From positions 1,984,001 to 2,048,000 of the forward strand of contig NZ_CP058566.2 in assembly GCF_014672715.2 (NCBI RefSeq): a DNA stretch of 64,000 nt, in the 5' to 3' direction. Numbering within the stretch: the first letter of the stretch is position 1; every line of letters begins with the position of its first letter. Origin of the DNA: Dehalogenimonas etheniformans. Lineage in GTDB: Bacteria; Chloroflexota; Dehalococcoidia; Dehalococcoidales; Dehalococcoidaceae. The position numbers and the translations under genes are program-made. Shown one piece after another: positions 23,963 to 27,397 of the stretch. The notes under the pieces are model-generated. The model had not been told where the DNA came from and made no database searches. It worked only from the letters and a program-made list of their open reading frames with translations.

Positions 23963-24625
23963 CTACTCCACTTTGAGAATGTTTAAATACCAGAAGCCGT
24001 CCTCCAGTACTTTTCGCGACTCGACAATCTGGAGCGGTTTCTTAAAAAGGGGACCGCCCAAAACAGTCGTGTGATAGGCCCCGGCCTCGGCGGGGCGCGA
24101 GATATGCTTTTCACGCCTTACATCGTCCCAGGCTTTCAAAAAATCGGCGTCTAGTTTCTTGCCCAGCCACTCCTCGCCCATTACATCGGCCCTGGTAGTG
24201 ACCACGATCGCCTCAAAGCCTCGATTGATGAATTCTTTGAGGATACGGTCCTTGGACATGCCGTCGAGGGGAAGATGTGCTTCGATACCGGCTTCACGAC
24301 AGACGCAATCGATCCACTGTCTCTCGACATCGCCGTTGCCGAAAACGCCGCCGTCGACACCTTGTTTCTTGAGTTCCTTAAGGCATTTCTTGAAGTCCGC
24401 CTCGTAGCGGAATCCATTGGTAACCAATTGGATGAGCGGGATGCCCATGGCCTCAGCCTGGGCTTTCATCAGGTCCGAGGATAGGCCGTGGGTGCAGGAG
24501 GTACGGCCGTCTTCGTTCAGGATATTCAAAAGGTGGGTCACCTTCATTCCCGAATCCTGGGCAAGGGCCAGCGACAGGCAACTGTCTTTGCCGCCGCTCC
24601 ATGAAGCTACAACCTGTTGACGCAA
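23963..24625 (-). CDS. DUF71/COG2102 PP-loop ATPase, copy B
   Basis: A 220-residue adenine nucleotide alpha-hydrolase with PP-loop ASWSGGKDSCLSLALA at residues 7-22, then HGLSSDLMKAQAEAMGIPL, GVFGNGDVERQWIDCVC, AIVVTTRADVMGEEWLG and HTTVLGGPLFKKPL. The start is a TTG preceded by GGAGGT. It lies directly upstream of nrdJ copy B on the same strand. Relatives include diphthamide synthase Dph6 and a bacterial group predicted to act in B12 salvage; bacteria make no diphthamide, so the latter is the more likely role. It has an extra HG(L/I)-containing loop compared with copy A and is about 40 residues shorter. Confidence 0.87.
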   Translation of the reverse strand: MRQQVVASWSGGKDSCLSLALAQDSGMKVTHLLNILNEDGRTSCTHGLSSDLMKAQAEAMGIPLIQLVTNGFRYEADFKKCLKELKKQGVDGGVFGNGDVERQWIDCVCREAGIEAHLPLDGMSKDRILKEFINRGFEAIVVTTRADVMGEEWLGKKLDADFLKAWDDVRREKHISRPAEAGAYHTTVLGGPLFKKPLQIVESRKVLEDGFWYLNILKVE

Positions 24626-24720
24626 GGCTACCTCCGTGAAGAAGTTATCGCGAAAAAATACGCCGGTTAATTATGTTCACCGGCGAACAGTCAATATTAG
24701 CAAGACTGCTCATTTTTGGC

Positions 24721-24746
24721 GGTAATTATCCCTTGACAACAAGTAC
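24721..24746 (+). repeat. Left terminal inverted repeat
   Basis: It begins GGTAATTATCCCTTGACAAC and matches the right end in inverse orientation at 21 of 26 positions, including the first five bases and the terminal CAAGTAC block. The transposase ATG lies 43 bp inside. A -35-like TTGACA within the repeat and TATAGT at 24756-24761 could form the transposase promoter with an unusually short 16-17 bp spacing. Confidence 0.68.
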
Positions 24747-24789
24747 TTAGTATGTTATAGTGTAGCTAATCGAACCAGGGAGCAAGGAA

Positions 24790-25671
24790 ATGGAACGCTA
24801 CACTATCAAGGACTTCAACAAGGACTTCCCGGATGATGCCGCTTGTCTCGAATGGCTAAGGTCTTATCTTTACGCCGATGGAATCACTTGTAAGACTTGC
24901 GGCAAGGTCACTAAGCATCATCGCGTGACTAACCGCGCTTGTTTTGCCTGCGACAATTGCGGAACGCAGGTCTATCCAATGACTAATACAATCTTTGAGA
25001 AATCCAGCACTTCCCTAAAACATTGGTTTTATGCCATCTTCCTAATGAGCCAAACGCGTTGTGGTATTTCAGCCAAGCAGATTCAGCGTGAAACAGGCGT
25101 TACCTATAAGACAGCCTGGCGGATGTTCAAGCAGATTCGGAGCCTATTAGGTGAGGATTGTGCCCCGCTGAAAGGTAAAGTTGAGGCTGACGAAACTTAC
25201 ATCGGTGGCGCAAGAAAAGGTAAACGGGGACGTGGCGCAGACGGTAAGACTCCCGTTGTTGGTGTTGTTGAGCGCAAGGGCAAGGTTGCAGCTAAGGTGA
25301 CTGGTGATCTCAAATCCAAATCCGTCAAGCCGTTTGTCATAAAGAAAGTCGAGCCGAGTTGTACGCTCTATACGGATGAATTTCAGGGTTATCGCGGGCT
25401 AGGCTTCTACGTCAATGGGCATGAAACTGTCAATCACAATAACGACGAATGGGTAAGGGGGGACGCACATACAAATACGATTGAAGGTTTTTGGTCTTTA
25501 ATGAAGCGGGGAATTAGCGGGGTTTATCATGCGGTTAGCCCCAAATACCTTCAGGACTATGTGAATGAATACGCTTTCCGGTATAACCATAGAGACGATG
25601 AAAAACCGATGTTTAGGTCTTTTCTGAATCAGATTGCTCCACCTTGCGGCAAGCCTGTTTCAGGTCCTTAA
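24790..25671 (+). CDS. IS1595/ISXO2-like DDE transposase
   Basis: A 293-residue transposase. An N-terminal zinc ribbon (CKTCGK at about 37-42 and CFACDNCG at about 56-63) is followed by a helix-turn-helix-like stretch (GISAKQIQRETGVTYKTAWR). The ISXO2-type catalytic domain shows EADETYIGGARKGKRGRG with the first Asp, LYTDEFQGYRG with the second, and HTNTIEGFWSLMKRG carrying the Asn/Glu end of the DDE/N triad. The frame looks intact and full-length. Its 3' end overlaps the passenger ORF of the opposite strand by 59 bp. It should cut and paste the element bounded by 24721-26550. Confidence 0.94.
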   Translation: MERYTIKDFNKDFPDDAACLEWLRSYLYADGITCKTCGKVTKHHRVTNRACFACDNCGTQVYPMTNTIFEKSSTSLKHWFYAIFLMSQTRCGISAKQIQRETGVTYKTAWRMFKQIRSLLGEDCAPLKGKVEADETYIGGARKGKRGRGADGKTPVVGVVERKGKVAAKVTGDLKSKSVKPFVIKKVEPSCTLYTDEFQGYRGLGFYVNGHETVNHNNDEWVRGDAHTNTIEGFWSLMKRGISGVYHAVSPKYLQDYVNEYAFRYNHRDDEKPMFRSFLNQIAPPCGKPVSGP

Positions 25672-25792
25672 AAAAATCATCGCGAGTAGGATGGTTGTTT
25701 GAATCGGGGTCTTCTTTTTCCCATCCCATGCTATCGTATTCGGCCTGAGCCCACTTTTGTCTGTATTCTTCCTTGCTATACACTCCGTTCAT
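25613..25792 (-). CDS. 59-residue passenger ORF
   Basis: ATG 25792 has GGTAGTGA upstream and starts 18 bp after the stop of the Ntn-hydrolase gene on the same strand, so the two look like an operon. The product (MNGVYSKEEYRQKWAQAEYD...) is acidic and helical, with one cysteine, and it ends inside the 3' end of the transposase gene on the opposite strand. I do not recognise a family. It could be a regulator or partner of the hydrolase, or a spurious ORF within the element. Confidence 0.55.
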   Translation of the reverse strand: MNGVYSKEEYRQKWAQAEYDSMGWEKEDPDSNNHPTRDDFFKDLKQACRKVEQSDSEKT

Positions 25793-25809
25793 CTTTCATC
25801 ACTACCTTT

Positions 25810-26490
25810 CTAATCAACCGTTACCGTGGTCGTCTCGTTTCCAACTCCAGGGGCTACTTGGCTCCGAGCTTTCGCCTCTGTTAGCAATTTCAAAACATCT
25901 TCTTTGGGTAAGTCCTTTTTATAACCATGTTCAATCAGATAGTAAACAGCATGGGGCGCACCAGAACCAATGGCAATATATCCTACACTGTCATGGCAGT
26001 TCAAATCACCCGGATTCGTGATTGAGAACAACTGGCAGCCCCCATCTCCCTTTCCAGCTACTATCAATTGTACCCCAACATCATTATTGCGCAAAGCGCC
26101 GTCAATCATCTGGATAATAGCGGGGGCTAATTTAGTTTGGTTATTATAGTAAGTGTCGAGGGTGAGTCCGCGTGGTTCGATTTCTGCCCTTAGGATTTTA
26201 AGTTTGCGTACATTGGAAAAATGTGCCCTAGCGATTTCGGCAATAGCGTCAACTGTGTTTGTGCCCTTGTTTTTAACATCCTTTTTAGTCGCACCGAGCA
26301 TTTCGTTGGCGGTTATCACATTGCCCGATATTAAAGCATAACAAGTTGGTGGATCATTTAGAGGCATGATTTTGGTGATATCATCGCGTTCAAACTCATA
26401 ACCCATCGGGAAATGAGACGTTACCATTTGGTCAGAGATCAAGACCAACCCCTGCCCGTTGCTGTATGATGCCGCGATACATATAGTCAT
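25810..26490 (-). CDS. Proteasome-like Ntn-hydrolase (passenger gene)
   Basis: A 226-residue protein with the N-terminal nucleophile hydrolase look of 20S proteasome beta/HslV/Anbu proteins. Thr2 would become N-terminal after Met removal (MTICIAASYSNGQGLVLISD), Asp20 sits where the proteasome Asp17 lies, and Lys in ITKIMPL corresponds to Lys33. A glycine-rich GKGDGG turn and IGSGAPHAVYYL follow; the latter is equivalent to the helix with GSG in proteasome subunits. A self-compartmented or stand-alone peptidase/amidase is possible. No ATPase partner is encoded here. It sits within the inverted repeats of the transposon, so it is probably cargo. Confidence 0.78.
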   Translation of the reverse strand: MTICIAASYSNGQGLVLISDQMVTSHFPMGYEFERDDITKIMPLNDPPTCYALISGNVITANEMLGATKKDVKNKGTNTVDAIAEIARAHFSNVRKLKILRAEIEPRGLTLDTYYNNQTKLAPAIIQMIDGALRNNDVGVQLIVAGKGDGGCQLFSITNPGDLNCHDSVGYIAIGSGAPHAVYYLIEHGYKKDLPKEDVLKLLTEAKARSQVAPGVGNETTTVTVD

Positions 26491-26524
26491 GGCGGGGATT
26501 ATAGAACACTATTAAATAAGAATT

Positions 26525-26550
26525 GTACTTGCCGCTAAGGGATACTTACC
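26525..26550 (-). repeat. Right terminal inverted repeat
   Basis: Read on the minus strand it begins GGTAAGTATCCCTTAGCGGC and ends AAGTAC. It differs from the left repeat at five of 26 positions. The Ntn-hydrolase start codon lies 34 bp inside. Confidence 0.68.
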
Positions 26551-26668
26551 AAATATATTTTGACATTTACGTGTAAACCAACAAGAGATTGCTTCGCTCT
26601 CCTTCGGAATCGCTCGCAAAACGAGGAAGGTGGCGTCTGCGCCACCAAAAGTGGTATAAGTTCCAGCC

Positions 26669-27397
26669 ATGAGCGACGATACCAAGAGCCAGGTCGAGGG
26701 GCATCGCGGGCGGCTTCGTGAGCGTTTCAAAAAGGGCGGCCTTCCAGCCCTGGCCGACTATGAGGTCGTCGAACTGCTGTTGACCCTCGGCCAGCCGAGG
26801 AGCGATTGCAAGCCCGCCGCCAAGGAAGCCATCAAGCGTTTCAAGACCCTCCGCGGCGTGCTGGAAGCCTCACCCGAGGAACTGTTGGAAGTCGCTGGCA
26901 TCGGGCCCAACAACTGCATCGCCATCCGGCTCATCGCCGATGCGGCGCGGGAACTGCTCAAGGAAAAGATCGTAGACGGGAAGACTGTCACGACCCCGGA
27001 GCAAGTGAAGGATTACCTGAACGCATCGATGGGTGGGTTGAAGAAAGAGGTCTTCAAGGTGATCTACCTGGACAACCAGAACCGGGTAATTGAAACCATC
27101 GATATGTTCCACGGCACGATAAATGCCTCGGCGGTGTGGGTGCGTGAGGTCATCGAGGGCGCGTTAAAGCGGCATGCGGCAGCAATGATCTTCGTCCACA
27201 ACCACCCCTCAGGTTCTATCACCCCCAGCCAACAGGACCGAAACATCACCAGGGACCTGGTACTAGCCTCCGAAGCGGTGGGCATTCGCGCGCTCGACCA
27301 TATTATCGTCGGTGGGGACAAGCATTTCAGCCTGGCATCAGAAGGATTGATGGACAAATATGTGGCTGAGTTTCAGGGGCTGCGGGGGAAGCGGTAA
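26669..27397 (+). CDS. radC: RadC-family JAB-domain protein
   Basis: A 242-residue member of the RadC/YicR family. Residues 1-95 hold a helix-hairpin-helix region (LLEVAGIGPNNCIAIRL). Residues 115-235 form the JAB/MPN metalloprotease-like domain with the zinc ligands in FVHNHPSGSITPSQQD and the Glu of YLDNQN...ETIDMF upstream. Historically linked to DNA repair, its biochemical role remains uncertain. It is a stand-alone gene that begins 118 bp outside the transposon and is convergent with ogt. Confidence 0.93.
   Translation: MSDDTKSQVEGHRGRLRERFKKGGLPALADYEVVELLLTLGQPRSDCKPAAKEAIKRFKTLRGVLEASPEELLEVAGIGPNNCIAIRLIADAARELLKEKIVDGKTVTTPEQVKDYLNASMGGLKKEVFKVIYLDNQNRVIETIDMFHGTINASAVWVREVIEGALKRHAAAMIFVHNHPSGSITPSQQDRNITRDLVLASEAVGIRALDHIIVGGDKHFSLASEGLMDKYVAEFQGLRGKR

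Follow-up and report, generated by a model that had tools for sequence, protein, structure and literature searches.

A proteasome-like hydrolase as passenger of an IS1595-family transposon in Dehalogenimonas etheniformans

A 1830-bp segment of the closed 2.07-Mb genome of Dehalogenimonas etheniformans is a discrete insertion relative to genus relatives, and it carries a proteasome-like hydrolase gene beside an IS1595-family transposase gene. The segment occupies positions 24721-26550 of the window, the 64,000-nucleotide stretch that was analysed (G000:C1:1984001-2048000). We consider it very likely that it is a single-copy, structurally complete member of the passenger-carrying IS1595 elements known as tIS, in which a cassette of a hydrolase and a small partner has been captured in an exchangeable cargo slot, and we include in this reading an inversion driven by the element. 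Elements of the tIS kind are already known (PMC11891212 and PMC3129680, citing Siguier 2009); in ISNha5, for example, a transcription regulator is the passenger (Siguier 2009, cited in PMC11891212). The cargo found here, and a short tail module that it has in common with related elements, appear to be previously undescribed.

Results

The element is bounded by imperfect 26-bp terminal inverted repeats that match at 21 of 26 positions; when the 150-bp end regions were shuffled 150 times, the best 26-mer match was at most 19. Both ends start with GGTAA, and the end type GGTAA.TATCCCTTGACA also bounds many other IS1595 elements. The repeats enclose an intact transposase gene and, convergent to it on the opposite strand, the hydrolase gene and a 59-residue ORF (Table 1). 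The original prediction had described this arrangement, and the repeat match, the shuffles and the Pfam and NCBIfam models bear it out. A promoter-like sequence reads into the transposase gene, and its -35 box lies at the same position of the repeat in most related elements. The transposase has a DDE_Tnp_IS1595 domain with an N-terminal zinc ribbon, and the repeats begin with 5'-GG, a feature of the Merlin elements, which are related (PMC8101967), that the related IS1595 elements examined here also show. The target-site duplication (TSD) of IS1595 elements is usually 8 bp (PMC8101967); here the expected duplication is absent, as the flanks, TTTTTGGC and AAATATAT, differ. Since this duplication is usual and not obligatory, membership in the IS1595 family stands. 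The passenger gene, which is unrelated to transposition, lies inside the ends, as in a tIS.

Table 1 Features of the element and its surroundings in the window, and passengers of related elements.
Feature	Position	Strand	Remarks
Dph6-like gene (Diphthami_syn_2), left flank	23963..24625	-	Different neighbour in three genus relatives
8-mer TTTTTGGC beside IRL	24713..24720	+	Inverted copy at the opposite breakpoint of the inversion (L074 2082-2089)
Left terminal inverted repeat (IRL)	24721..24746	+	GGTAATTATCCCTTGACAACAAGTAC; 21/26 against IRR; same terminus as in TSD-flanked relatives
Promoter-like TTGACA-17-TATAGT	24733..24761	+	11/12 consensus; -35 inside IRL
Transposase P0001, 293 aa, intact	24790..25671	+	NF033547 2.4e-64; Pfam DDE_Tnp_IS1595 1.2e-43; Zn_ribbon_IS1595 1e-6
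59-aa ORF P0003	25613..25792	-	Starts just after hydrolase stop; overlaps transposase 3' end
Tail core PTRDDFFKDLKQACRKV in P0003	25640..25690	-	Found likewise in about 15 IS1595 elements, by itself or joined to passengers
Partner-like segment SKEEYRQKWAQAEYD in P0003	25733..25777	-	Resembles YRxxWLxAER of the small ORF 3' of the L094, L112, L113 and L010 hydrolases
Proteasome-like Ntn-hydrolase P0002, 226 aa, passenger	25810..26490	-	Pfam Proteasome 4.3e-7
Right terminal inverted repeat (IRR)	26525..26550	-	Reverse-complemented GGTAAGTATCCCTTAGCGGCAAGTAC; 34 bp upstream of hydrolase start
radC, right flank	26669..27397	+	Different neighbour in three genus relatives
Dam-type methylase and PDDEXK_11 nuclease	L009 1402-3802 (G000:C1 ~1706487-1708887, same genome)		Perfect 8-bp duplication TTAAATTA
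HicB-like gene, HicA-like ORF, DUF6941	L032		HicA-like ORF without Pfam match
N6_Mtase/HSDR_N protein	L095
Trypsin-like proteases	L035, L057, L098
DUF4145	L060
NYN	L057
Membrane proteins	L031, L033 (two further copies), L046		Membrane character read by eye

Homology to the genus relative G256 ends at 24703 on the left and restarts at 26552 on the right, and it is on this break that the insertion is recognised. The hydrolase is absent from all seven other genomes of the genus. No second copy of the element was found and the duplication is missing, so that mobility of this exact element is only presumed.

The hydrolase passes the cut-off of the Pfam Proteasome model (30.2 bits, cut-off 22.4), and a 12-sequence profile (A4) matches PDB proteasome subunits at 2e-10. 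The gene had been predicted to be proteasome/HslV-like; no HslV model was among the NCBIfam matches. There is also no unfoldase gene inside the element, and no PADLOC model matched P0002 or P0003. Residues Thr2, Asp20, Lys40 and Gly56, which do not vary among 12 homologs, match Thr1, Asp17, Lys33 and Gly47, the active-site set listed for proteasome-like proteins in PMC8665760. Thr2 and Asp20 had been named in the original prediction. The prediction that the enzyme is self-processing is not supported: it lacks a propeptide, and Thr2 would already be exposed once Met1 is removed. A model of the hydrolase made by AlphaFold from only 3 sequences had a mean pLDDT of 37. As far as can be judged from the sequence, the protein would be an active Thr-nucleophile amidohydrolase without propeptide, probably forming a ring or split-ring assembly, and it may serve protein quality control or the response to stress. 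Two distant relatives lie in chaperone clusters. The gene order in L119 (2781-6971) is dnaK-hydrolase-dnaJ, and L064 (5797-9224) comprises an Hsp20-like gene, a CDC48-type AAA+ ATPase gene and a truncated hydrolase gene. These neighbours hint at protein quality control; in PMC8665760, no suggestive genomic contexts are reported for such proteasome homologs.

Apart from the window element and two further loci, L120 and L118, the hydrolase loci found, about 14 and some of them partial, have no IS1595 transposase; the four closest hydrolases (L010, L094, L112 and L113) are not part of any IS1595 element. L120, in genome G556, is an intact element with a transposase of 59% identity and repeats that match at 22 of 26 positions, and its hydrolase, of 320 aa, has the same location and orientation as that of the window. 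L118, in G415, is a relic in which a hydrolase, the tail and a repeat-like right end are left, along with the final ~23 codons of a transposase gene. The prediction of a transposon with a hydrolase as passenger is supported, and IS1595 elements with such cargo occur again at these two loci. However, the hydrolase and short ORF do not always lie inside such an element, given L010, L094, L112, L113 and most of the others, and the hydrolase and this transposase are not a fixed unit, because the nearest transposase, that of L050 (79-81% identity), carries different cargo. The original prediction had named homologs that are common outside such elements as evidence against it. They are indeed common, which tells against the gene belonging to the transposon and not against the transposon carrying the gene.

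In the tree of the hydrolases, the window hydrolase groups with those of L010, L094, L112 and L113 with support of 100/99, and that of L120 is placed elsewhere. By their sequences, the L120 and L118 hydrolases represent another branch of the tree than the window hydrolase, with the proviso that the placement of long branches is unsure. The hydrolase was probably recruited into IS1595 elements at least twice. The phage and plasmid collections searched for hydrolase homologs contained none. In IMG/VR there was one homolog (L094), located at a contig end, which is not proof of viral origin. The surroundings of L010 and L112 showed no IS1595 transposase and no convincing ends. In L112 (3397-5709), a close relative of the hydrolase and its partner lie just downstream of a SWIM/DDE_Tnp_1 transposase, which is of another family; this locus, for which no ends were found, may be another mobile context.

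Relatives of the transposase were sought in 400 genomes of the phylum (17 genomes at E <= 1e-60) and in IMG/VR, and about 20 related IS1595 elements with passenger genes were examined. Nearly all of those in which the right end was found have the right repeat 0.5-2.5 kb past the transposase, with other genes in between. These passengers are usually on the opposite strand, and the elements have similar ends and different cargo (Table 1). The cargo of L009 is a candidate type II restriction-modification system, one of two restriction-modification candidates among the cargo of related elements, and that of L032 includes a HicAB-like pair of the toxin-antitoxin type. The protease of L035 matches the PADLOC model PDC-S45 and no Pfam model. 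Exact 8-bp duplications flank L009, L031, L033, L047, L049 and L095, as well as L098 after a 1-bp shift, and they are absent at L046 and L120. Three near-identical elements of 1925 bp in G337 (L033, L047 and L049), each with a perfect 8-bp duplication, carry a 324-aa membrane protein that ends in the tail motif; they speak for the mobility of such elements with a tail.

The 59-aa ORF looks, from its sequence, like a chimera composed of an N-terminal partner-like half and a C-terminal tail module. The tail motif, TxxxFxxxLxKA, occurs in related elements in a short opposite-strand ORF near the 3' end of the transposase gene. The passenger proteins of L033, L057, L095 and L098 have this motif at their extreme C-terminus, the HicB-like protein of L032 ends in a divergent form of it, and in other elements it is found in a small ORF of its own. 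An HMM of the tail trained without P0003 gave P0003 an E-value of 3e-5, above all 2000 shuffles, followed by the tail of L118 at 1e-3. In a search of the 400 phylum genomes, all matches below 1e-3 fell on IS1595 elements or remnants of a transposase, a restriction that is partly by construction since this search was trained on these elements. The N-terminal half, EYRQKWAQAEYD, resembles a small ORF that immediately follows the genes of the closest free hydrolases and reads DYKTAWLEAERD in L094, KYREEWLKAERE in L113, PYKMKWLDAERK in L112 and EWVKAERD in L010. Against the partner HMM this half ranked 3rd of about 2000, a weak match in which two of 2000 shuffles scored higher, and which is strengthened by the identical position of the gene, just 3' of the hydrolase.

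The element lies at a breakpoint of an inversion. In G256, G039 and G186, a block X with a tRNA at its end lies next to the dph6-like gene, and a block Y lies next to radC. These three genomes retain both junctions free of the element. In the present genome, block X adjoins inverted Y at C1 ~1867.5-1867.9 kb; this junction implies that the ~140 kb in between have been inverted, with the element on one breakpoint. Among the four genomes compared, the inversion is found only in this one. The other breakpoint was searched for a second copy of the element, and none was found. The 8-mer beside IRL recurs there in inverted orientation, where homology to block Y ends, and its length equals the usual duplication length of the IS1595 family, which is consistent with intramolecular transposition as the cause of the inversion. 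An intergenic motif that resembles a promoter (around GTCAAGCGTTTCGTGTCGTTTTT) is present at both ancestral sites and, judging from numerous short matches, recurs widely in the genome.

Discussion

The element and its relatives, whose passengers differ, have a common backbone that consists of a left end with a promoter, the transposase gene, and a short convergent tail ORF over the 3' end of the latter. Passengers would occupy a slot between this tail and the right end, where they may be exchanged while the tail is retained; the tail would persist as a small ORF by itself or supply the last passenger gene with a new C-terminus. In the present element, the slot would have taken a two-gene cassette of hydrolase and small partner, such as other Chloroflexota have outside transposons, with the partner becoming fused to the tail. 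As for the site, the element may have moved into the intergenic region between Y and radC, after which intramolecular transposition into the region upstream of dph6 could have driven the ~140-kb inversion, a second copy at the other breakpoint having presumably been lost or never made. This scenario needs either the later loss of a copy of the element or a one-ended event, and it would account for the missing target-site duplication.

It could be argued that the hydrolase is a resident chromosomal gene beside which a plain IS1595 element inserted, with a right repeat that is fortuitous or a solo end. The many hydrolase relatives outside IS1595 elements would suit such a view. However, the gene is missing from the seven other genomes of the genus, relatives with exact 8-bp duplications have transposase, passenger and right repeat spaced alike, and the arrangement is repeated in L120. 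Above all, homology to the relatives restarts right after the right repeat; the position of this break largely refutes the resident gene, which we regard as highly improbable. A second objection concerns the tail, which might be no functional protein module and simply a frame kept open by the antisense of the conserved C-terminus of the transposase. The ORF does overlap the transposase gene in part in the window, L031, L033 and L050, and the tail could have been partly shaped by this overlap. The codon-position entropy of the tail is 1.21/0.89/1.68, so that third positions vary most, and seven tail cores (L057, L058, L059, L095, L096, L097 and L098) lie wholly outside the transposase ORF, that of L057 being about 0.9 kb away and fused to the protease. 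Variable third positions and cores outside the transposase gene indicate that the tail is not merely an antisense echo, and we judge the antisense explanation unlikely.

A closer competitor holds that the inversion and the missing duplication are unrelated to transposition, and reflect a chance break beside the element or a later adjacent deletion. Inversions are common in genomes, the other breakpoint has no copy of the element, and L046 and L120 also lack duplications. Against this, the breakpoint is within about 20 bp of the element, and the 8-mer beside IRL recurs inverted at the other breakpoint; with 3 occurrences per 64 kb, ~0.02 would be expected by chance in this junction of 374 bp. 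We would give this competitor a little less than an even chance; an inversion driven by the element remains our preferred account.

With other tIS elements, the element has in common the IS1595 transposase with its zinc ribbon, the 5'-GG inverted repeats, the passenger inside the ends, and relatives with 8-bp duplications. It differs from the known ones by a proteasome-like hydrolase pair as cargo, by a tail common to passengers and, in this copy, by the lack of a target duplication. The hydrolase resembles the homologs described by Fuchs, Alva and Lupas 2021 (PMC8665760) in belonging to the proteasome-like family, in the Thr-Asp-Lys-Gly set and in having no propeptide. The PMI and PHI types of that study have an insertion after helices H1/H2; compared with yeast beta-2, the window hydrolase has about 40 extra residues before its C-terminal half, like types with a long pore-loop insertion, and at a position compatible with the PMI and PHI types. 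It shares the catalytic residues with HslV and the 20S proteasome beta subunit, as well as the C-terminal half by profile. In contrast to these proteins, it has no adjacent HslU or proteasome partner and no propeptide, and the matches are weak and of partial length.

Phage carriage of some types of proteasome homologs (PPH, AAH) is reported in the available text of PMC8665760, which makes no mention of transposon carriage, and none of the papers searched links proteasome homologs to transposons. To the carriage of some types by phages, the element adds another mobile route by which proteasome-like enzymes can spread, and the data suggest that carriage by such elements arose at least twice. For these uncharacterised hydrolases, it also offers a genomic clue, namely a small conserved partner, together with the chaperone-cluster neighbours of distant relatives. 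The joining of different cargo to the same short tail across related elements suggests a reusable cargo slot. As this tail is common to unrelated passengers (restriction-modification, antitoxin-like, protease, membrane protein and hydrolase partner), it raises a testable question on how cargo is captured, retained and expressed in minimal transposons. It is conceivable, although we lean against it, that the portable tail (TxxxFxxxLxKAsxP) has a shared function, such as docking passengers to the transposase, a host protein or a degradation pathway, with the hydrolase and its partner as one of several repeatedly recruited cargoes of the stress or defence type.

IS1595 elements that are built alike were also seen outside Chloroflexota, in a Geminicoccaceae plasmid (L122, CP122394.1) and in a Sulfitobacter plasmid (L123). 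In both, the passengers are encoded opposite to the transposase, at whose end there is a short antisense ORF, and one of these passengers weakly matches Cas2-like, possibly VapD-like, proteins.
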